Of a DNA stretch of 35,937 nucleotides, positions 4,373-35,937 are shown one piece after another. How positions within the stretch are numbered: the first letter of the stretch is position 1; the number at the start of each line of letters is the position of its first letter. A model generated the notes under the pieces. It did not search any database. It was not told the DNA's origin and saw nothing but the letters and a program-made list of their open reading frames with translations. This DNA comes from Terriglobia bacterium (GTDB lineage Bacteria > Acidobacteriota > Terriglobia > UBA7540): contig JAIQEZ010000041.1 in NCBI GenBank assembly GCA_020073545.1, positions 1 through 35,937 of the forward strand, in the 5' to 3' direction. The translations under genes were made by a program, and so were the position numbers.

Positions 4373-4705
4373 ATGTGGCGAAAGCGGGGGGCAACCTGCA
4401 TTGGTTCAGGGTGCAGTTACGTGATCGGAAAGACCGAGGGAGCGTATCTGCACATCCTTTGGTGGCTCCTTGTAGGACGGATTGCGGGTTGGGCAACTGG
4501 GGAAATCATGCGGGGCGCCGGATACGGTATTGTCGCGGAGATCGTGCTCGGCATAGTGGGAGCCATGACCGGTGGTTACCTTATGCGCTGGATGGGTTAT
4601 ACGGGCGAAGGCGGTCTACTCTGCACCGTCGGCGTGGCGATTGCTGGCGGCATAACCCTTACGGTAGTCGTTCGGTTGATCACGGGGAGGGGAGTCAGCG
4701 TGTAA
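4373..4705 (+). CDS. GlsB/YeaQ/YmgE family small membrane protein
   Basis: The core from HILWWLLVGRIAGWATGE onward has the three-helix, Gly-rich pattern of the transglycosylase-associated (GlsB/YeaQ) family: a first helix ending GRIAGW, then G-A-G-Y-G-I-V-A-E-I-V-L-G-I-V-G-A and a third Gly-rich helix. The family is an inner-membrane protein linked to general stress; its biochemical role is unclear. From the ATG at 4373 the product is 110 aa, about 27 longer than typical. A GTG at 4421 (CAGGGTG upstream) would give a more normal 94 aa and may be the true start. It sits just upstream of a SYLF protein gene, another stress/membrane-associated family. Confidence 0.75.
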   Translation: MWRKRGATCIGSGCSYVIGKTEGAYLHILWWLLVGRIAGWATGEIMRGAGYGIVAEIVLGIVGAMTGGYLMRWMGYTGEGGLLCTVGVAIAGGITLTVVVRLITGRGVSV

Positions 4706-4835
4706 GCCGGGGGCCCGGACGGAGCGCTCAGTCTCGAAAGCAGACCAATGCCAACCGGCAATTCTATGACTCGTGAACGGAAATATGCGGCACGCCGGTG
4801 AGAAAGTGCAACGACTTAGGTTAAGGAGGAACCCG

Positions 4836-5525
4836 ATGAAAGGGCTAACGGTGGTTTTTCTGTTTCTCACAATCTGTGCGCCGGCTTTCGCTGGCGAGAC
4901 ACAATTGGACAAAGCAACCAACGTCGTCAATGAGATCATGGGAACTCCCGACAAGGGGATTCCCCAGGACTTGTTGGACAAAGCCGTGTGTGTTGGGATC
5001 GTCCCTTCAGAGTTGAAGGGTGCCTTGATTTTCGGCGGCGCTTATGGACGAGGGATCCTAGTGTGCCGCGAAGGCGGGAACGGTCCGTGGGGTGCCCCGT
5101 CTATGTTCACCCTCGGCGCGGGGAGCGTTGGATTTCAGATTGGCGGTAAGGCCACCGATGTGGTCTTCATCGTGATGAACCCCGAAGGCGCACGAAAGCT
5201 AGTTCAAGACAGTGTCAAGCTGGGCGCAGAAATATCTGTGGCGGCCGGGCCGGTGGGTCGATCTGCGGAAGGCGCCACGGACGTCCAGCTTCACGCCGAG
5301 ATTCTTAGTTACTCGCGGACGCGGGGGTTGTTTGCCGGGCTCTCGCTCGACGGAGCTGTAGTAAAGCAGGACAGGGACGATAACGAAAAACTCTACGGAC
5401 GGAAGGTCGGCGCCGAAGAGATTTTGATCGCCGGCGCGGTACCCGTCCCTCCCGAGGCTCGGGCTTTGGACGAGGCGCTGGCCAAGTACTCTCCCAAGGG
5501 TGGACAAGCGTTCGCGCGAGCGTAG
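4836..5525 (+). CDS. secreted SYLF/YSC84-domain lipid-binding protein
   Basis: The start at 4836 is fixed by a strong AAGGAGG six bases upstream. The 229-residue product opens with a Sec signal peptide (MKGLTVVFLFLTICAPAFAG, cleavage after about residue 19). A SYLF (YSC84/DUF500) domain follows. Its family features are the helix 'KATNVVNEIM', then AVCVGIVPSELKGALIFGGAYGRG, VCREG...WGAPSMFTLGAGSVGFQIGG, VVFIVMNPEGARKL and the closing RGLFAGLSLDGAVVKQD. SYLF domains bind phosphoinositide/anionic lipids in eukaryotes; bacterial secreted versions are mostly uncharacterised and probably periplasmic or envelope-attached. The length is usual for the family. Confidence 0.9.
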   Translation: MKGLTVVFLFLTICAPAFAGETQLDKATNVVNEIMGTPDKGIPQDLLDKAVCVGIVPSELKGALIFGGAYGRGILVCREGGNGPWGAPSMFTLGAGSVGFQIGGKATDVVFIVMNPEGARKLVQDSVKLGAEISVAAGPVGRSAEGATDVQLHAEILSYSRTRGLFAGLSLDGAVVKQDRDDNEKLYGRKVGAEEILIAGAVPVPPEARALDEALAKYSPKGGQAFARA

Positions 5526-7630: not shown

Positions 7631-7957
7631 CCTTCGAGTTGAGAACCGCGATTCTATTTGGAAGCGGGCCAGGATTCAAGCGCCACCTTCGGAAGGGTCG
7701 ACCCAGGTCAGGGCACTGCGTTTTTCGAGAGACCGCGGAGAGGCTGTCATGGAGACGGCTCCCCTCCCCGGCTGAGGAGGGGGCCGCGGTCGTGGCCGTC
7801 GCCCACCACGGTGGGTGCCAGCCCGCGGCCGACACGGCCGTGAACGGTCATTCCCGCCCCGAAGCAATCGGGGCAGGCTCCAGCGGGAATCCAGGTTGTC
7901 AGTGGACCCCCGCCTGCGCGGGGGTGACAACGAGAGGCGCGGCGGTGAAACGGGTCT
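7631..7957. other. intergenic region dense in palindromes
   Basis: This 327-bp gap follows the GNAT gene and precedes the PLD-like gene, both on the minus strand. It contains a perfect hairpin CCCCTCC-ccggctga-GGAGGGG at 7761-7782, then GGCCG/CGGCC-type inverted repeats through about 7840, then the bipartite REP-like element at 7847-7929. I see no gene. The PLD promoter must lie near 7640-7700. Confidence 0.55.
7847..7929 (+). repeat. bipartite REP-like palindromic element (intergenic copy)
   Basis: The left palindrome opens gtcattcccgc (7847-7857) and closes gcgggaatcca (7883-7893), with a Pro-type insert 'cccgaagcaatcgggg' inside. The right one is 'gtggacccccgcctgcgcgg' onward, closing gggggtgac, at 7902-7929. 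The same two parts in the same order occur on the other strand at 34267-34334, where they lie inside a coding sequence. Confidence 0.75.
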
Positions 7958-8779
7958 TCAGCCGCGCGGGCTGCGGCGCAGCAGATAGAAGCAGCGGTCT
8001 TCGCTGGCCGGCTGCGGCGGAAGGAAATCCTCCACGCGGAATCCCGCCGACAGATAGCGTTCGAAGATGCGCCGCGTTTCCAGGCGCCAACGGCGGGCCA
8101 AGGGCAGGGCTCGCGACCGCATGTCACCGGTGTGGGCGGGAATCTCCACCAGCAAGCCGGGATGGGTCAGGTCAAGCCGAATTACGCGGTTCTCCGGGAA
8201 TCCGCGGGCGGTCAACCGAGTCTCGTTCACGCGAGGAAGCGAGGCGTCCACAGGCGGAGATTCACCCTGCAGCCGCGCTCGAACCCGCGCCGTGGCAATG
8301 CGCCAGTTGACCACCAAGCGATCGCTGGGCAAGCCTTTCTCAAGCAAGCTCGGAAAGTGGCCGTAACAGTCCGGCACGTATTGATCGACGACGGCGCCCA
8401 GGCGCGAGATGTTCAACCTGGCGTTCCGGCTCTGTAACGGGTCGTACGTCCAGCAAATGGATTTGAGGCCGCGTTCGAGTGCGAGCTTGCGGTGAAAGAG
8501 CTTCATCCGGAACCCGAACCCCCGGTCTCGGAACCTGGCCTCCACGGCCATCATGTGCGACCAGTGAACCAGGCGGCCGTGGAAATGGGCGAGAAACGCG
8601 TAGATAAAACCTGCGACTCTGCCCTCGACAATCGTCCCCACGACCGCCCCACCGTATTTTTGCGTTACCGCCATGACTTCGCTGCCCACACCGAGCGTGC
8701 CCCAAACGCGCCTCTGGATGGGCTCGCATTGACGGTACTCCTCGAGATTCTTCAGCAGCCTGATCTCGGCCCGAGGCAT
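7958..8779 (-). CDS. GNAT-superfamily acetyltransferase (COG3375-like)
   Basis: The 273-residue protein has an N-terminal GNAT fold. Visible are the opening IRLLKNLEEYRQCEPIQRRV, the beta-4 segment GRLVHWSHMMAVEARFRDRG and the acetyl-CoA loop RDRGFGFRMKLF (R-x-x-G-x-G/A type) near 83-95. After it comes KSICWTYDPLQSRNARLNIS, with LNISRLGAVVDQY. This order, with the 'WTYDPL.S.NA..N...LGA' segment, is typical of the predicted acetyltransferases of COG3375. The C-terminal 110 residues carry no recognised domain. The substrate is unknown. GGAG lies just before the start codon. The gene ends in front of the palindrome-rich gap. Confidence 0.8.
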   Translation of the reverse strand: MPRAEIRLLKNLEEYRQCEPIQRRVWGTLGVGSEVMAVTQKYGGAVVGTIVEGRVAGFIYAFLAHFHGRLVHWSHMMAVEARFRDRGFGFRMKLFHRKLALERGLKSICWTYDPLQSRNARLNISRLGAVVDQYVPDCYGHFPSLLEKGLPSDRLVVNWRIATARVRARLQGESPPVDASLPRVNETRLTARGFPENRVIRLDLTHPGLLVEIPAHTGDMRSRALPLARRWRLETRRIFERYLSAGFRVEDFLPPQPASEDRCFYLLRRSPRG

Positions 8780-25875: not shown

Positions 25876-26182
25876 CGCGGTCGCTCGTGCGCTGGGCGGC
25901 TTTTGTGAGCTGGTGATTTTGTGGGTGAAGAAGAGATCCTTCGCCCGTCCCGACAAGGCGGGGCACTCTGTCCCCGCGGGAGAGGGTTGTGGATTTGATG
26001 TGGTTGGAGGTCTGCTCGTCGACGCACCCGGCAACAGACGGTGCAGGGCGAGCCGACGGCTATTTCAAACGACGAATTAGCCGTCGCCACCCCTCCCTTG
26101 CGCCTCGCCCTCATTCTCTCTATTTCACCGGGTGGCTTAAAGCGCCACATGCCTCGCATAGCTGGTTCCGCGCAATTCTGTT
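25876..26182. other. intergenic region between the efflux operon and the glycosylation locus
   Basis: No gene seen. The stretch holds a GC-rich fragment 'cccgcgggagaggg' at about 25973 resembling the CCCTCTCCC repeats found at 32674, and a perfect 9-bp inverted repeat at 26054-26086 (CGACGGCTA ... TAGCCGTCG, 15-nt loop) that could end the operon transcript. Confidence 0.5.
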
Positions 26183-28853: not shown

Positions 28854-30491
28854 GTGAATAACGGTTCGGTTGGTTCGCTGCAATCCGCTGTTTCACCGCG
28901 CTCACGCATGTGGCTCGGGATGTCACTTCTTTTTGTTCTGCTGAGGGCATTTCCATGTATTTGCTACCCCATCGGGCGTGACCAAGCTACTTATTGTTAT
29001 ATTGGTCAGCGGCTGCTGGAGGGGAAGCGGCTTTATCTCGACCTCTGGGATAACAAACCCCCTGGCATCTTCTATTTTTATGCCCTCATTGTGAAGATCT
29101 TCGGAACCGCCATGTGGTCGGTGGGCGTGGTGGATATCCTGTGGTTGCTGGTCATCTCCTACTTCATTTTCAGATTCACCGAACGGTTTCTGGGGACAGC
29201 GGCCGCGGTAACTGCCGTGGTCTTTCATGCGACATGGCGTGCCTGGATGGGCTATTGGGACGCGGCACAGCCTGAAAATTTCCTAGTGCTCTTCGTCATC
29301 GTTGCCTACTTCCTGTCGTCGTATGCCGGCAGGAGGCGGTGGGTTTGCGATGCCTTGTCCGGGTTCCTTTTCGGAGCTGCCTTTTGGCTCAAATACAACG
29401 CTGTGACCTTCATTCCACTGCTGCTTCTTATTCCCTATCTCGATTTCGCGCCGCTCGATGCGGGCTCACGTCTCCCGCGCTTCACCGTGTCTGGCGAGGA
29501 GTGGATCAGGCGCGTGGGAGTCTGGGCCGCGGCCTTCGCCCTGGCCGTGGCGGGAGTGCTCGCGTACTTTTGGTGGGTCGGCGCGTGGCCGGCGATGAGG
29601 GAAATACAATTCGAGGTGTTGCCCCGCTACAACGCCATGGCAGCCGAGCGCTACCGACCCTATTGGCTTTATGTGTATAACCTCATGAGTGTGAACCTGG
29701 GACCCTGGACATTGATCCTAGCGCTCGCGGCGATCATCGTGGCTCGGCGCACGAGGACTCTCGTTCAAACCATGCCGGTGTTCTTGGCCACAGCGATGGG
29801 TACCCTGTGCACCGCGATGCAAACCCGTCTGCCGACTTATGCTTTTGAAACCTGCTATCCCTTCTTCGCCATGCTCTGGGGCTACATGGGAGTGAAGGTC
29901 TTCGAGGGCTTCCGATTTGTCGCGCGGAGGTGTTGGGGCCGTGGCTGGCGGGTTGCGGCAGTCATGGTCTGGCTCATCTTCGCCAATTTGATTTACTTGC
30001 CCTTGCCCAACGAAGCCGTTCAGTTGAAGCTCTACTTCTACGATCTAAAGGAATGGTGGCAAGACCGCGACGCTTTTTACGCCAATTACCCCTGGGCGCG
30101 TCCGATCTCTCATTATGACGGCCAGATACGGGTTATCGAGTACCTGCGCGAGAATTCCACCCCAAAGGATGGGGTGTTTATCTGGGGCAGCGAGCCGCTG
30201 ATTTATTTCCTGGCCCAGCGCAATCCGCCCACGCGGTTTGTTTCGAACCTTGGGCTACTCTCGCTTTGGACGCCACCCGCCTGGCGCCTGGAGCTGATGC
30301 GCGATCTGCAAGCGTCTCCCCCCAAATACATGATCGTGGAGCGCGAAGACTGGGTGCCGATGATTTCTTTCAACTTTCTGGATTCCGAGGAGTATCTTCA
30401 GCAGCGGTTCCCTGCACTCTCACGATTCGTGACGGACCGCTATCAGAAGGTCGCCGATTTCAAAGCGTTCGTGATCTATCGTCATGACTAA
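28854..30491 (+). CDS. GT-C family (ArnT/PMT-like) membrane glycosyltransferase, paralog 1
   Basis: The 545-residue protein has about 10-12 hydrophobic helices. Its first loop holds the PMT_2-like acidic motif GRDQATYCYIGQRLLEGKRL (Asp43), then LWDNKPPGIFY (Asp66, KPPG). This is the arrangement of lipid-phosphate-sugar-dependent GT-C enzymes, whose catalytic Asp sits in this loop. Other shared blocks are FGAAFWLKYNA, GAWPAMREIQFEVLPRYN, FETCYPFFAMLWGY and a C-terminal VFIWGSEPLIYFLAQR...RFVSN. It would transfer a sugar from a polyprenyl donor to an acceptor at the outer face of the inner membrane. A GTG start with weak AGGG is used. It overlaps paralog 2 by 8 bp. Confidence 0.88.
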   Translation: MNNGSVGSLQSAVSPRSRMWLGMSLLFVLLRAFPCICYPIGRDQATYCYIGQRLLEGKRLYLDLWDNKPPGIFYFYALIVKIFGTAMWSVGVVDILWLLVISYFIFRFTERFLGTAAAVTAVVFHATWRAWMGYWDAAQPENFLVLFVIVAYFLSSYAGRRRWVCDALSGFLFGAAFWLKYNAVTFIPLLLLIPYLDFAPLDAGSRLPRFTVSGEEWIRRVGVWAAAFALAVAGVLAYFWWVGAWPAMREIQFEVLPRYNAMAAERYRPYWLYVYNLMSVNLGPWTLILALAAIIVARRTRTLVQTMPVFLATAMGTLCTAMQTRLPTYAFETCYPFFAMLWGYMGVKVFEGFRFVARRCWGRGWRVAAVMVWLIFANLIYLPLPNEAVQLKLYFYDLKEWWQDRDAFYANYPWARPISHYDGQIRVIEYLRENSTPKDGVFIWGSEPLIYFLAQRNPPTRFVSNLGLLSLWTPPAWRLELMRDLQASPPKYMIVEREDWVPMISFNFLDSEEYLQQRFPALSRFVTDRYQKVADFKAFVIYRHD

Positions 30492-32121
30492 CCGGCCTCC
30501 GGAAACAAATCCCTCACCGCGTGCTAACCCCTGGAGGTGGCTTGGGGGAGCGCTGGTGTTGGTCATCCTGCGCGCTCTCCCCAGCCTTCGCTATCCCCTC
30601 GGACGAGACCAAGCCACCTACTGTGTGATCGCCCAAGGGCTGCTTCACGGTCGGCTCCTTTATCGTGACCTTTGGGACATCAAACCCCCCGGTATCTTTT
30701 ACATCTATGCCGTGATCGTCAGGATCTTTGGGCCGGTGATGTGGTCGATCGGGATTGTCGACATCCTCTGGCTCGTGGCGATTTCGATTTGCATCTCCTG
30801 CTTTGCGAAGCGCTACCTGGGTGCGCCGGCGGCTGCGATCGCCGTGGTCTCTAATGCCCTGTGGCACTGCTCGTGGGGTTACATCCACGCTGCACAGTCT
30901 GAGACTTTCGTGACGCTGTTTGTCTTTCTGGCGTACTTCCTCCTGATGTCCGCAAAAGCGCGGAACTGGAGGGGCAACCTCGCTGCCGGTCTGCTGTGCG
31001 GTGCCGCGTTCTGGGTGAAATACAACGCCGCACCGTTCTTTCCGGTGTTGGCCTTCCTGCCCTATCTGGATCTTAGCCGTTTTGATGAGCAGCCGCGGCG
31101 GGCTCGATTGACCATCACTTGGTGGGTGTGGTTTCAGCGGACGCTGGTCATTGTAGCGGGCTTCCTGCTGATGATTGTCGCAGTCCTTGTCTACTTTTGG
31201 GGCGTCGGCGCGTGGCCCGCACTGAAAGAAGGGCACTTCGAGGTTCTGCCTCGTTACGGCTCCATGTTTCTGGCGCGTACGCCCCATTACTACCGACTGG
31301 CGATCGATCTGACTCACCTTCATCTTGGCGTGTGGGCGGAAGCTGTTTTCGGAGCGGCGTTGCTGATCGCCTGGAGGCGGCGGCAGTTGCGAGTTGTGGG
31401 GCCGGTTCTGATCATGGCCATCGCGGGTATTATCTCCACGGCTTCCCAGGCACGCTTCAGCTCGTTCAGCTTTGAAACGGCCTATCCTTTCTTTGCCATG
31501 CTCTGGGGGTACGTGATCGTCAAACTTTACGAAGGCTTTGTGCATCTCCGTGAATCCTTTGCCCGACGAAGCTGGCGCGTGGCGGGCGTGCTGTTGTGGC
31601 TGGTGGCGGCGGAAGTGGTCTACTACCCGCTGCCCGACTATGCTTTCGAAATCGCAGAAGAGTACAATGGCCTGGCTGGGTGGATGCACGACCCTCACCG
31701 GTCCTATGAGGATTACCTCTTTCCAGCCCCTTTCGAAAAGCTTCACGACCAGATGGCGATCATTGATGATCTGGAGAAGAATTCTGCCCCGCAGGATGAA
31801 GTCTTTGTTTGGGGCACAGCGCCGCTGATCAATTTTCTGACGCAGCGTCCAAACCCCAGTCGGTTTGTCTCGAATCATGCCTTGATTTCCCCCTGGGGGC
31901 CGGCGCGCTGGCGGCAAGACCTGATTGCCGAATTGAATCGAAAGCCGCCGCGTTTCATCGTCGTGGAGCGTCACGACGAGATCCCCCTCGTGGCTCTGAC
32001 CTATGACGATTCCGAGCAGTGCCTGAAGAAATACCCCTCGTTGGCTTCGTTCATCGCGGGTCGTTACGAGTCTGTCAAGAATTTGTCCGATTTCGAGGTC
32101 TATCGCCTCATGCGACCGTGA
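30484..32121 (+). CDS. GT-C family (ArnT/PMT-like) membrane glycosyltransferase, paralog 2
   Basis: 545 residues, the same length as paralog 1, with the same blocks: GRDQATYCVIAQGLLHGRLL (Asp42), LWDIKPPGIFYIYA, CGAAFWVKYNA, GAWPALKEGHFEVLPRYG, FETAYPFFAMLWGYV and VFVWGTAPLINFLTQR. It starts inside the end of paralog 1 (ATG at 30484 before its TAA at 30489-30491), indicating translational coupling. In the first loop it is closer to paralog 3 than to paralog 1; the nucleotide sequence of that loop is nearly the same as paralog 3 for about 90 bp. It lacks the insertion seen in paralog 3. Acceptor and sugar are not known. Confidence 0.88.
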   Translation: MTNRPPETNPSPRANPWRWLGGALVLVILRALPSLRYPLGRDQATYCVIAQGLLHGRLLYRDLWDIKPPGIFYIYAVIVRIFGPVMWSIGIVDILWLVAISICISCFAKRYLGAPAAAIAVVSNALWHCSWGYIHAAQSETFVTLFVFLAYFLLMSAKARNWRGNLAAGLLCGAAFWVKYNAAPFFPVLAFLPYLDLSRFDEQPRRARLTITWWVWFQRTLVIVAGFLLMIVAVLVYFWGVGAWPALKEGHFEVLPRYGSMFLARTPHYYRLAIDLTHLHLGVWAEAVFGAALLIAWRRRQLRVVGPVLIMAIAGIISTASQARFSSFSFETAYPFFAMLWGYVIVKLYEGFVHLRESFARRSWRVAGVLLWLVAAEVVYYPLPDYAFEIAEEYNGLAGWMHDPHRSYEDYLFPAPFEKLHDQMAIIDDLEKNSAPQDEVFVWGTAPLINFLTQRPNPSRFVSNHALISPWGPARWRQDLIAELNRKPPRFIVVERHDEIPLVALTYDDSEQCLKKYPSLASFIAGRYESVKNLSDFEVYRLMRP

Positions 32122-32211: not shown

Positions 32212-33981
32212 ATGATTGATGAATCCGTACCCCAGCTTCAACGCTCCCGCACCTGGTTTTTGGCCGGGCTTGTGGTGGTTTTTCTGCGCGCGCTCCCCAA
32301 CCTCCGCTATCCCCTCGGACGGGACCAAGCCACCTACTGCGTGATCGGGCAAGGGTTGCTGCACGGCCAGCTCCTTTATCGCGATCTCTGGGACAACAAG
32401 CCGCCGGGGATCTTCTACGTCTACGCGTTGATCGTGAAAATCTTCGGGCCCGTGATGTGGTGCGTAGGCGTGGTGGATATTCTGTGGTTGCTCGTCATCT
32501 CCTGCTGCATCTTCTATTTTGCCCGGCGTTATTTGGGGACGCCGGCCGCGACCCTGGCGATAGTCTTCAACGCTGCGCGACACTGCCGGCAGGGATACAT
32601 CCATGCGGCCCAGCCCGAAACGTTCTTGATGCTCTGCGTGTTTGCCGCTTGGTTCCTGTTATGTGGAAGTGATCCCTCACCCGCCCTCGTACCTCGGGCA
32701 CCCTCTCCCCAAGGGAGAGGGTTGGAGCTGAAAACACGTCGGATGCCAGCCCTCTCCCTTGGGGAGAGGGTGGCGAGCGTAGCGAGCCAGGTGAGGGGTT
32801 TCTTCTCTCGGGGGCAGGGATGGACCCTGCGGGTGATCCGGTACTTTGCGGCGGGTCTGTTGTTGGGCGCGGCGTTCTGGTTGAAGTACAACGCGATTGC
32901 CTTTTTCCCTTTTGTGGTGCTCCTGCCGTTTTTGGACTTCCGCGAGTTGGATCGGGGATCAGGGCACGTGCGCCTGGAGATCCCTTGGAGAGACTGGTTC
33001 GTGCGAGCCCTGATCGTGGGCGCCGGTTTTCTTCTCGCTGTCGTTGGGGTCTTGGCCTATTTCTGGGTTTCGGGAGCGTGGCCGGCCATGAAGGAGGTCC
33101 AGTTTGAGGTGCTGCCGCGCTACGGAGCCAAGGTCTTCCATTGGAGTTTCTATTTTGTCCTCTGGGCTCTCTGGCAAACCCAGAACCACATGGGAATTTG
33201 GAACGAGGTTATGCCTGCACTTACCCTGTTGTTTGCCTGGAAGCGCCGTGAACTGGGCTTGGTTGCGCCGGTATTACTGCTGGCGTTCGCCGGATACGTT
33301 TCCGTAGTAATGCAGGGGCGTTTTCATCCCTATTATTTCGAAACCTGTTTTCCTTTCTTTGCGATGTTCTGGGGATATGTCTCGGTCAAGACTTACGAAG
33401 GCTTCAAATACCTTCAGCGAGTGTTCGCGCAACGAGGATGGACTTTGGCCCGGGCCATGCTGTGGCTGGTGTTAGCGGGACTCGCCTTCTCGCTGCTTCC
33501 CGAAGAGAGCGTGCGCGTTGTGCAGCAGTACGAATTCCTGGCTGACTGGTGGCGGGATCCAGAGCTTTCCTACAAAACATACTGGTGGGAACTTCCGCTG
33601 GAAAAGCTCGGGGAACAACTGCGCGTGATTGACTACCTGAAAAAGAATTCCGACCCTAGGGATGAGGTTTACGTTTGGGGAACTGCTCCCCTCATCAATT
33701 TTCGGACGCAACGGAGAAATCCCAGCCGGTTCGTGTCCAACTTGGCTCTGATCTCCACATGGGCGCCGGAGCGCTGGCACCAGGAGCTAGTTCGCATACT
33801 GGAGGCGAAGCGGCCGCGCTATATCGTGGTGGCGCGCCACGATTCAGTCCCTACCCTCACCTTCACCAGGATGGATTCAGAAGAATACCTGCAAGTGTAT
33901 CCCGCCTTGGCTGACCTGTTGAAACGCCAGTACCAGTTAGATGTCAACTACTGGGATTTCGAGATTTACCGTTTGAAGTAG
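32212..33981 (+). CDS. GT-C family (ArnT/PMT-like) membrane glycosyltransferase, paralog 3, with in-frame palindromic insertion
   Basis: 589 residues with the shared blocks GRDQATYCVIGQGLLHGQLL (Asp38), LWDNKPPGIFYVYA, LGAAFWLKYNA, GAWPAMKEVQFEVLPRYG, YFETCFPFFAMFWGYV and VYVWGTAPLINFRTQR. It is 44 residues longer than paralogs 1 and 2. The excess falls at residues about 154-196 (DPSPALVPRAPSPQGRGLEL through SQVRG), between a membrane helix and the AAFWLKYNA block. It is coded entirely by a double palindrome (see 32674-32798), and the frame stays open through it. The protein may tolerate this as a cytoplasmic or periplasmic loop, or it may be impaired. The 3' end overlaps the convergent YfhO-type gene by 16 bp. 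Confidence 0.87.
   Translation: MIDESVPQLQRSRTWFLAGLVVVFLRALPNLRYPLGRDQATYCVIGQGLLHGQLLYRDLWDNKPPGIFYVYALIVKIFGPVMWCVGVVDILWLLVISCCIFYFARRYLGTPAATLAIVFNAARHCRQGYIHAAQPETFLMLCVFAAWFLLCGSDPSPALVPRAPSPQGRGLELKTRRMPALSLGERVASVASQVRGFFSRGQGWTLRVIRYFAAGLLLGAAFWLKYNAIAFFPFVVLLPFLDFRELDRGSGHVRLEIPWRDWFVRALIVGAGFLLAVVGVLAYFWVSGAWPAMKEVQFEVLPRYGAKVFHWSFYFVLWALWQTQNHMGIWNEVMPALTLLFAWKRRELGLVAPVLLLAFAGYVSVVMQGRFHPYYFETCFPFFAMFWGYVSVKTYEGFKYLQRVFAQRGWTLARAMLWLVLAGLAFSLLPEESVRVVQQYEFLADWWRDPELSYKTYWWELPLEKLGEQLRVIDYLKKNSDPRDEVYVWGTAPLINFRTQRRNPSRFVSNLALISTWAPERWHQELVRILEAKRPRYIVVARHDSVPTLTFTRMDSEEYLQVYPALADLLKRQYQLDVNYWDFEIYRLK
32674..32798. repeat. double-palindrome REP-like element inside a coding sequence
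   Basis: Two imperfect inverted arms of about 50 bp (32674-32725 and 32748-32798) each contain an internal hairpin built on CCCTCTCCC/GGGAGAGGG. The outer ends are 'ccctcaccc' and 'ggtgaggg'. The arms share 'caccctctccccaagggaga' in their inner parts. It lies inside paralog 3 and keeps the frame. Confidence 0.8.
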
Positions 33982-35937
33982 AGCGCGATCAGCGCCGCCA
34001 GGGTGACGAGCGAAACGATCAAGCCCCCGCGCAAGCCGCGCTGGCGGTAGTCAAAGCGGATTTCGTGACGCCCGGCCTCGGCGTAGACGGCACGAAAGGT
34101 CTGGTTGGCGCGCCAGACGGTCGTTTCGCGGCCGTCGATCGTGGCTTGCCAACTCGGATCGTATCGGTCCAGCAGGACAACGTAGGCGGGGCGGGAGAGC
34201 TGCGCCTGAAGGGTGACGGAGTTGGGATCGCGGTGCGTGACTTCCACTTGGCCAGCAGCCGTATAGTCACCCCCGCGCAGGCGGTGGTCCACGTCCGCTG
34301 GTCCTCTGTGGATTCCCGCTTTCGCGGGAATGACCGCAAGAGCGCGAGGGTCGCTCACTGCGGGTGCGGAGCCCGCTGGCGCGGCGAGAATGACCGTGTT
34401 GAGTGCGTCGAAATCCCGCGCCGCGAGCAGGTTCAGCGTCTCGAAGGAGTTCGTTGAGAACAGGGAATTGCCCGCCACGTAGGTCCGGGGAACAAAGCAC
34501 AGGTCCTCATACAAACGACTTGGCAGCGGGGAGCCATTGAACACGTCGCCGATCAACCGCGTGGCAGTGGAATCGGCTGGGGTGGGCCGAATGATGTACT
34601 TCACATTCGTGCGGCCCAGCAGGCAGTCGGCGCGCAAGGGGTCCGAGGCCTCACGGCTGAGGTAGATTTCGACGTCGTAGAGATAAGGCGGCAGCGAGCG
34701 TTCGAGGTCCAGGTTGATGCTTCCCTCCACTTGGTTGAGCATGGAGCCGGTGGCCAGTTGCAGCCGGGCCTGGAATGCCCCTTGGGCGATCGGCGCCAGT
34801 TCTGCAGCTTCCGGGATGGATTGGAAGTTGATGTAGGTTTGCAGGTTCTTGGTATCGGGCGTCAGGGTGATCGGCCAGAAGGAAGTGACGCGATAGGTTC
34901 CGGGCGGATCCTTGAACTCAGCAAGCACCGGGGGGCGATAGGTGAGGAAGCTCTTCGGGACCGTAGGGTTTGCTCCGGAATTCACCAGGACTAGTTGGGC
35001 CATGGCCAGAAGCGCAAAGGCGTACAGACCCGGACACGCCCACTTCTTTCCTTGTTCCAGGCCGGACGCCAGCACGAGCCCGCCCAAGCAGAACCCCGCC
35101 AGCCCGGGAAGCTGAAGCCGGAGCATGGCGTTCAGAAAATTCGGCATTTGGTCGAGATTAAACGGGGTCTCCCCGAGGGCGTGGAGCGCCCAGCGGGTAG
35201 GCGAGGCAATGAGACCGGGCACAATCCATGCCATGGCCAGAACAATGACGACACAGCCCAGAAGGATTTGCAGAGGCAGCACCAGCCGCCGGCGGTGGGC
35301 CCTCCACGGGCAGGCGGCGGAGCGCAAGGCGTCGAGCCCCCAGCCGGCGAGGAGCGCCACAAGGAACGTGACGAGCACCAATAGCTTGATGGGATAGCGC
35401 ACGAACATCAGGGGCGGCAGAAGTAAATACCCCAGGGCGAAGACAGGCGTGAAGTGACCGAAGCAAAACAACAGGAAAATCCCGGCGGCACCCGCGACGA
35501 AATGGCGGCGGCGGTCAGTGCCCAGGCGCCAGCCGCCCAGCGCAAAGTAGAGCGGCACGAATCCCAGGAATACCGAAAGAAAATAGGGAACGTTCCGGTC
35601 TGACATCAGCCACAGCCAACCGGTGGGAGAAGCGATGCCGGAGCCGAAGAAATCCGGTATGACGATTTCCGGCAAAGAGAATGGATTGAGCGCCCAATTG
35701 GCGGTTTCGCGAAAGCGCAAGCCTTGCACGCCGCGACGAGAATGGCTGAGCAGGTCGGAGGCGGGCAGAAACTGGACCGCACAGAGCAACAACATGCCAC
35801 AGCCGACCAGGAAGAAGATCGCGAGCAGCCGCAGGTTCGGCTTGGACCAGAGTTTGTTCAATGTGCCGCGCTGATAGAGAGCGTAGGCGAACGAAAGGCC
35901 GAATGTCGCGAGCATGGTCATCGGCTCTCCGGCCAGC
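33966..35937 (-). CDS. YfhO-family multi-pass membrane protein, 5' end outside the window
   Basis: The frame is open to the window edge: before the first visible Met (35921) come codons for LAGEP, which look like the mid-protein 'L.G.P' segment of YfhO proteins, so about 100 or more N-terminal residues are missing. Visible features are many hydrophobic helices, LPASDLLSHSRRG, PEIVIPDFFG (family FPDFFG-like block), FVRYPIKLLVLVTF and a C-terminal periplasmic part ending in DRYDPSWQATIDGRETTVWRAN (family YDPGW.A.VDG). The protein ends with a last membrane helix. YfhO relates to bacterial membrane glycosyltransferases of the GT-C type and is linked to lipoteichoic-acid glycosylation in Firmicutes. 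An in-frame REP-like element is inserted at 34267-34334. Confidence 0.85.
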   Translation of the reverse strand, partial: LAGEPMTMLATFGLSFAYALYQRGTLNKLWSKPNLRLLAIFFLVGCGMLLLCAVQFLPASDLLSHSRRGVQGLRFRETANWALNPFSLPEIVIPDFFGSGIASPTGWLWLMSDRNVPYFLSVFLGFVPLYFALGGWRLGTDRRRHFVAGAAGIFLLFCFGHFTPVFALGYLLLPPLMFVRYPIKLLVLVTFLVALLAGWGLDALRSAACPWRAHRRRLVLPLQILLGCVVIVLAMAWIVPGLIASPTRWALHALGETPFNLDQMPNFLNAMLRLQLPGLAGFCLGGLVLASGLEQGKKWACPGLYAFALLAMAQLVLVNSGANPTVPKSFLTYRPPVLAEFKDPPGTYRVTSFWPITLTPDTKNLQTYINFQSIPEAAELAPIAQGAFQARLQLATGSMLNQVEGSINLDLERSLPPYLYDVEIYLSREASDPLRADCLLGRTNVKYIIRPTPADSTATRLIGDVFNGSPLPSRLYEDLCFVPRTYVAGNSLFSTNSFETLNLLAARDFDALNTVILAAPAGSAPAVSDPRALAVIPAKAGIHRGPADVDHRLRGGDYTAAGQVEVTHRDPNSVTLQAQLSRPAYVVLLDRYDPSWQATIDGRETTVWRANQTFRAVYAEAGRHEIRFDYRQRGLRGGLIVSLVTLAALIALYFKR
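34267..34334 (-). repeat. bipartite REP-like element inside the YfhO-type gene
   Basis: On the minus strand this reads gtcattcccgc-gaaa-gcgggaatccac, then a gap, then gtggaccaccgcctgcgcgg and closing gggggtgac. This is the same order as the intergenic copy at 7847-7929. It codes VIPAKAGIHRGPADVDHRLR and GGD in frame, between two segments typical of the family (NTVILAAPAG and VEVTHRDPNSV). Confidence 0.8.

Follow-up and report, generated by a model that had tools for sequence, protein, structure and literature searches.

Short palindromic repeats dispersed through bacterial genomes have been described in several forms, and two bear directly on the locus reported here. TM_ECO, an intrastrand triplex motif (Hoyne/Maher PIT) published as CCCTCNCCC-N3-6-GGGNGAGGG-N3-GGGNGAGGG, has 3610 occurrences in 262 proteobacterial genomes; in E. 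coli K-12 it is always intergenic and forms five inverted pairs, and the database search for it allowed a second loop of 1-6 nt (PMC4666352). Repeats of the GTAG/CGTC type, in turn, are known to enter reading frames: in-frame REP dimers have been published for Opitutus terrae, Rickettsia conorii, Thauera, Xanthomonas, Sphingomonadales, and others, tRNA synthetases and repair genes are among the targets, dimers or groups that encode 20-30 residues make up over half of the intragenic inserts (43-82 residues for larger clusters), and the ends of the Rickettsia RPE carry CGTC (PMC3733652). The initial annotation of our locus had supposed that palindromes tolerated within genes are rare outside Rickettsia. 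Since in-frame REP dimers are published for several bacteria, such insertions are already established there and are no rarity, and the family described below adds in-frame copies in other genomes.

The window (the whole stretch of 35,937 nucleotides of Terriglobia DNA that was analyzed) contains three tandem forward-strand genes, all encoding PMT_2-type (PF13231) membrane glycosyltransferases. Paralog 1 (28854-30491) and paralog 2 (30484-32121), each of 545 aa and without insert, are built-in controls for paralog 3 (32212-33981), a PMT_2/ArnT-like GT-C glycosyltransferase of 589 aa that combines PF13231 with a GT-C fold (AlphaFold model, mean pLDDT 82.5; top Foldseek match ArnT 5f15, E 4.9e-8). 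The PF13231 match stops at residue 150 in paralog 3 and extends to 195-196 in paralogs 1 and 2. Paralog 3 carries, in frame, an inserted copy of a dispersed palindromic repeat. A single clean gap of 50 residues, visible also in the DNA alignment, sets it apart from 15 of 15 homologs (the two paralogs and 13 homologs from relatives), none of which has a conserved, non-palindromic loop at this site; relative to all of them the net insertion is 150 bp (32662-32811, + strand; residues 151-200, CGSDPSPALVPRAPSPQGRGLELKTRRMPALSLGERVASVASQVRGFFSR). The initial annotation, which had recognized the inserted repeat, measured it as a 43-codon stretch accounting for the 44 residues by which paralog 3 exceeds its neighbors. 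That agreement is coincidental, for subtracting the insert leaves 539 aa of paralog 3; its orthologs are 541 aa long, the closest insert-free ones being ~70% identical overall. The bounds first given for the element, 32674-32798, also need to be widened: the family sequence starts sharply at AAGWGACCCCTCACCC, so the inverted dimer is placed at 32667-32804 (+ strand; 138 bp, 46 codons), where the covariance-model matches are 32666-32724 (+) and 32747-32805 (-). The consensus ends of the family are AAGWGACCCC and CTG, and a search for a target-site duplication at the empty site of paralog 3 gave nothing convincing.

The two inverted arms noticed at the outset (32666-32725 and 32746-32805) are 60 nt each, 75% complementary, and separated by a spacer of 20 nt; each holds one CCCTCTCCC/GGGAGAGGG hairpin. 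Unit 1, on the + strand, consists of a CCCTCACCC block (32674-32682), which supplies a third-strand-like block GGGTGAGGG on the opposite strand as in the TM_ECO pattern, a second-loop hairpin GCCCTCGTACCTCGGGC (32683-32699) whose helix covaries in the family, and the core hairpin CCCTCTCCC-CAA-GGGAGAGGG (32701-32721). Unit 2 is inverted, on the - strand, with its core hairpin at 32750-32770 (arm match and covariance model), its second-loop hairpin GGCGAGCGTAGCGAGCC at 32772-32788 (sequence and family helix), and a GGTGAGGGG block, recognized by sequence, at 32790-32798. The repeat unit is roughly 58 nt with two hairpins, and the element has terminal inverted repeats GAAGTGATCCCTCACC / GGTGAGGGGTTTCTTC. 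The predicted RNA fold of the 150-nt insert reaches -104.6 kcal/mol (z = -10), a value equaled by 0 of 200 shuffles. Across the family the hairpin that separates the GGGTGAGGG block from the core stem keeps its pairing despite sequence variation; over the whole structure 99 cells are changed on both sides, versus 35 in shuffles, mostly in the second-loop helix, although fitting the alignment to the structure biases this count upward.

Like TM_ECO, the element has a GGGTGAGGG block after a CCCTCTCCC-loop-GGGAGAGGG hairpin, is dispersed, and sometimes occurs in inverted pairs. The 9-nt C-rich/G-rich stem CCCTCNCCC...GGGNGAGGG with a loop of 3-6 nt is present at both 32701-32721 and 32750-32770, and the second G-rich block GGGNGAGGG is matched by CCCTCACCC in unit 1 and, with one mismatch, by AGGTGAGGG in unit 2. 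Where TM_ECO has a second loop of 3 nt, however, a covarying 17-nt hairpin plus 1 nt lies between the blocks, and because this departs from the published definition we regard the family as resembling TM_ECO, not as belonging to it. The host range differs as well, since TM_ECO was described in proteobacterial genomes and the present family is found also in Acidobacteriota, Planctomycetota, Verrucomicrobiota, and others. Similar reservations apply to the other described families. As with the Rickettsia RPE, a palindromic repeat lies in frame within unrelated genes, is absent from orthologs, and codes for an extra, tolerated peptide; unlike the RPE, it lacks a CGTC end and resides in another host group, a separation drawn from the published RPE ends. 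The intragenic GTAG/CGTC REP dimers are likewise inverted dimers within open reading frames of free-living bacteria, but the present family is without both tags and longer per unit. The element shares with MITEs its short, non-autonomous form, terminal inverted repeats, and occasional in-frame position in genes, and differs from them in that neither a target-site duplication nor a parent transposon was found. Rfam holds no match to the family, and a literature search, mostly outside subscription journals, returned nothing relevant on the exact two-hairpin sequence. Since GTAG/CGTC tags, target duplications, an Rfam match, and copies near the eight Y1_Tnp loci tested are all absent, the family is not a classical REP, and it is not evidently the Rickettsia RPE either. 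The earlier designation "REP-like" therefore holds in the sense of a dispersed palindromic repeat and is unsupported in the strict sense.

The repeat is abundant. The genome that carries the window has 34 BLAST matches to the element and, by a covariance model of the unit (E<0.01), 48 elements comprising ~55 units. A search for the exact hairpin pattern gave 19 matches on each strand, versus 0 for a reversed control pattern. Within the same bacterial family the repeat is present in 36 of 39 genomes, at 0-134 copies each. Units are paired in the '+-' order 60 times and in the '-+' order twice, which indicates that the head-to-head dimer is the normal compound form. At least 120 stretches from named genomes carry the family, and among the matches listed 77 are from Pseudomonadota, 14 from Planctomycetota, 9 from Acidobacteriota, and the rest from about a dozen phyla. 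A weaker copy lies in the window itself (25930-25989), between RND transporter and aminotransferase genes, and is apparently intergenic.

How often such copies are found within genes was estimated by means of a codon model for which 8702 codons from the window served as the training set. In the own genome 1 of 47 testable elements, the paralog-3 copy, clearly lies inside a gene with one coding frame on both sides; long open reading frames over the other copies are mostly spurious by the coding model. Among relatives, 4 of 121 elements are inside genes in one frame: in a sulfotransferase (L154), an anhydro-N-acetylmuramic acid kinase (AnmK; L194), an M56/DUF3738 protein (L052), and a reverse transcriptase (L224). 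The AnmK copy supplies 49 residues where a solved homolog has about 12. These numbers are approximate, since a coding test with 150-bp flanks missed the paralog-3 and M56 copies and one with 300-bp flanks flagged both, and the percentages are rough because they derive from a simple coding model and the best-scoring copies.

Further in-frame copies are present among the matches listed from named genomes: two within one gene for a Limisphaerales type I restriction subunit, one in a Hyphomicrobiales helicase, one in an alphaproteobacterial terminase, and a dimer (L312, 4009-4136) in the isoleucyl-tRNA synthetase (IleRS) of a cultured strain, Sphingomonas changbaiensis NBRC 104936. The interrupted enzyme is the sole full-length IleRS found in that genome, a solved IleRS structure is without the inserted segment, and the predicted tryptic peptides of the insert include WEGEGDQTLSPSPR and SPEASRPLPMGEGSNAPTLR. 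From the wider collection we discarded L253, L299, L303, L310, and L314, where the element lies before the gene start or past the gene end, together with flagged open reading frames that have stops within the element. Twice, repeat elements were met adjoining a DUF559 segment: the Limisphaerales subunit (L259, 5545-6988) has an inserted DUF559 domain between its two copies, and in Roseomonas (L310, 551-607) a RuvC frame reads through the element into a DUF559-like segment. A specialized coding capacity of the element can be ruled out. It is G+C-rich, and the mean number of open frames per dimer, 2.4 of 6, does not exceed that of dinucleotide shuffles (2.42 versus 2.53), so that a length divisible by three and an open frame reflect chance followed by selection, not design.

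In the AlphaFold2 model the insert is predicted to form a largely disordered loop between TM4 and TM5, in keeping with its original description as a loop beside a conserved block. Residues 154-178 have pLDDT <50 and lie between helices 135-151 and 183-224, the second half of the insert lengthening the next helix at low confidence. From the helix count, a cytosolic N-terminus, the conserved GRDQ loop outside, and GT-C topology, the loop probably faces the cytosol.

It is conceivable, though we think it unlikely, that a recent insertion inactivated paralog 3, with the frame left open by chance and the loss masked by the two intact paralogs that adjoin it. The hairpin of extreme stability within the message would fit such an event, as would the closeness of both arms to the family consensus, which suggests youth. 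Against this, the frame from 32212 to 33981 crosses the insert with neither a stop nor a frameshift in its 589 codons, and values of dN/dS (NG86, against three orthologs) of about 0.09-0.14 on either side of the insert, with dS near saturation for several pairs, indicate purifying selection as averaged over both gene halves, with no sign of decay in the sequence. Because the arms are near consensus the insertion may be young and these ratios may mostly predate it, and as the insertion is undatable a dN/dS of ~0.1 is no proof of function afterward. Measured against outgroups, paralog 3 nevertheless evolves no faster than orthologs without the insert (57.0/57.0% identity to two outgroups, versus 54.4/53.1% for an uninterrupted ortholog), and at positions that are otherwise invariant it has only 3 changes of its own, as normal members do. 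An insertion of the same kind in another bacterium, where it interrupts the only full-length IleRS, argues in the same direction. We suspect that the insert peptide is translated and that the enzyme remains active. The stable fold might instead mark a retained regulatory device acting on RNA stability, pausing, or attenuation, a suggestion we consider very improbable since the hairpin is restricted to this gene copy, other intragenic copies occupy unrelated positions in unrelated genes, and Rfam has no such family. Least probable is a misjoining of the repeat into the gene during assembly: the genome is a draft of 261 contigs with the element repeated within it, but both flanks align uninterrupted to one ortholog in a single frame, which an artefact would rarely preserve, and comparable in-frame copies occur in independent assemblies, one of them from an isolate.

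A separate question is how the element moves. Movement of the IS200/IS605 type is expected to leave no target duplication. A classical REP/BIME mobilized by a RAYT (REP-associated tyrosine transposase) would agree with the short palindromic units paired inversely, with nine Y1_Tnp (PF01797) matches in the genome, and with the result for 57 '+-' dimers, whose flanks share no k-mer clearly beyond noise. This explanation is doubtful, however, because the family consensus has no GTAG or CGTC end tag and no significant family unit lies within 1.5 kb of the eight Y1_Tnp loci tested; such a transposase may nonetheless act on the element in trans. In the absence of a target-site duplication and a family-linked transposase, we infer mobility from the distribution of the family.

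A second type of palindrome lies close by, at 34267-34345 in the minus-strand gene 33966-35921 (PF09586, YfhO-like) adjacent to paralog 3. It consists of GTCATTCCCGCGAAAGCGGGAATCC with a degenerate partner arm, is in frame, codes for VIPAKAGIHRGPADVDHRLRGGD, and is CGTC-repeat-like; it is absent from four same-genus orthologs, in which the loop is of variable length, and the genome contains 26 exact hairpins of its family. Elsewhere in this genome another ATTCCCGC palindrome is in frame in a gene for a helicase (L372, 1501-1522), and translations with SPAKAGAQIV and PAGACPDCFGAGMT at about 4616-4981 and 7747-8127 of the window suggest more degenerate ATTCCCGC-type palindromes.

Taken together, these observations suggest, with a probability we would put at roughly 0.8, that a TM_ECO-like dimer inserted into paralog 3, that the frame was kept, and that the added peptide is tolerated by selection. 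The palindromic element that entered the gene in this lineage is dispersed and non-autonomous, a head-to-head pair of the ~58-nt two-hairpin unit, probably moved in trans by some enzyme encoded elsewhere. Its 138 bp are divisible by three and free of stops in the frame in which it landed, and its landing site is the short TM4-TM5 connection, away from the catalytic extracytoplasmic loop; these properties together would account for the maintenance of the frame and the tolerance of an extra, largely disordered peptide. The broader proposition, that triplex-motif-like dimers with an extra hairpin are mobile and repeatedly coding across phyla, with a few percent of copies translated within unrelated or essential enzymes, we consider evenly balanced.

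Palindromes that lie in frame may be a source of new protein segments, and the family reported here, which lacks the tags of the described repeats, goes in frame in several phyla. The S. changbaiensis IleRS belongs to a cultured strain, so mass spectrometry offers a direct test of whether its insert is translated. For a membrane enzyme, the three tandem paralogs provide a clean natural before-and-after comparison.
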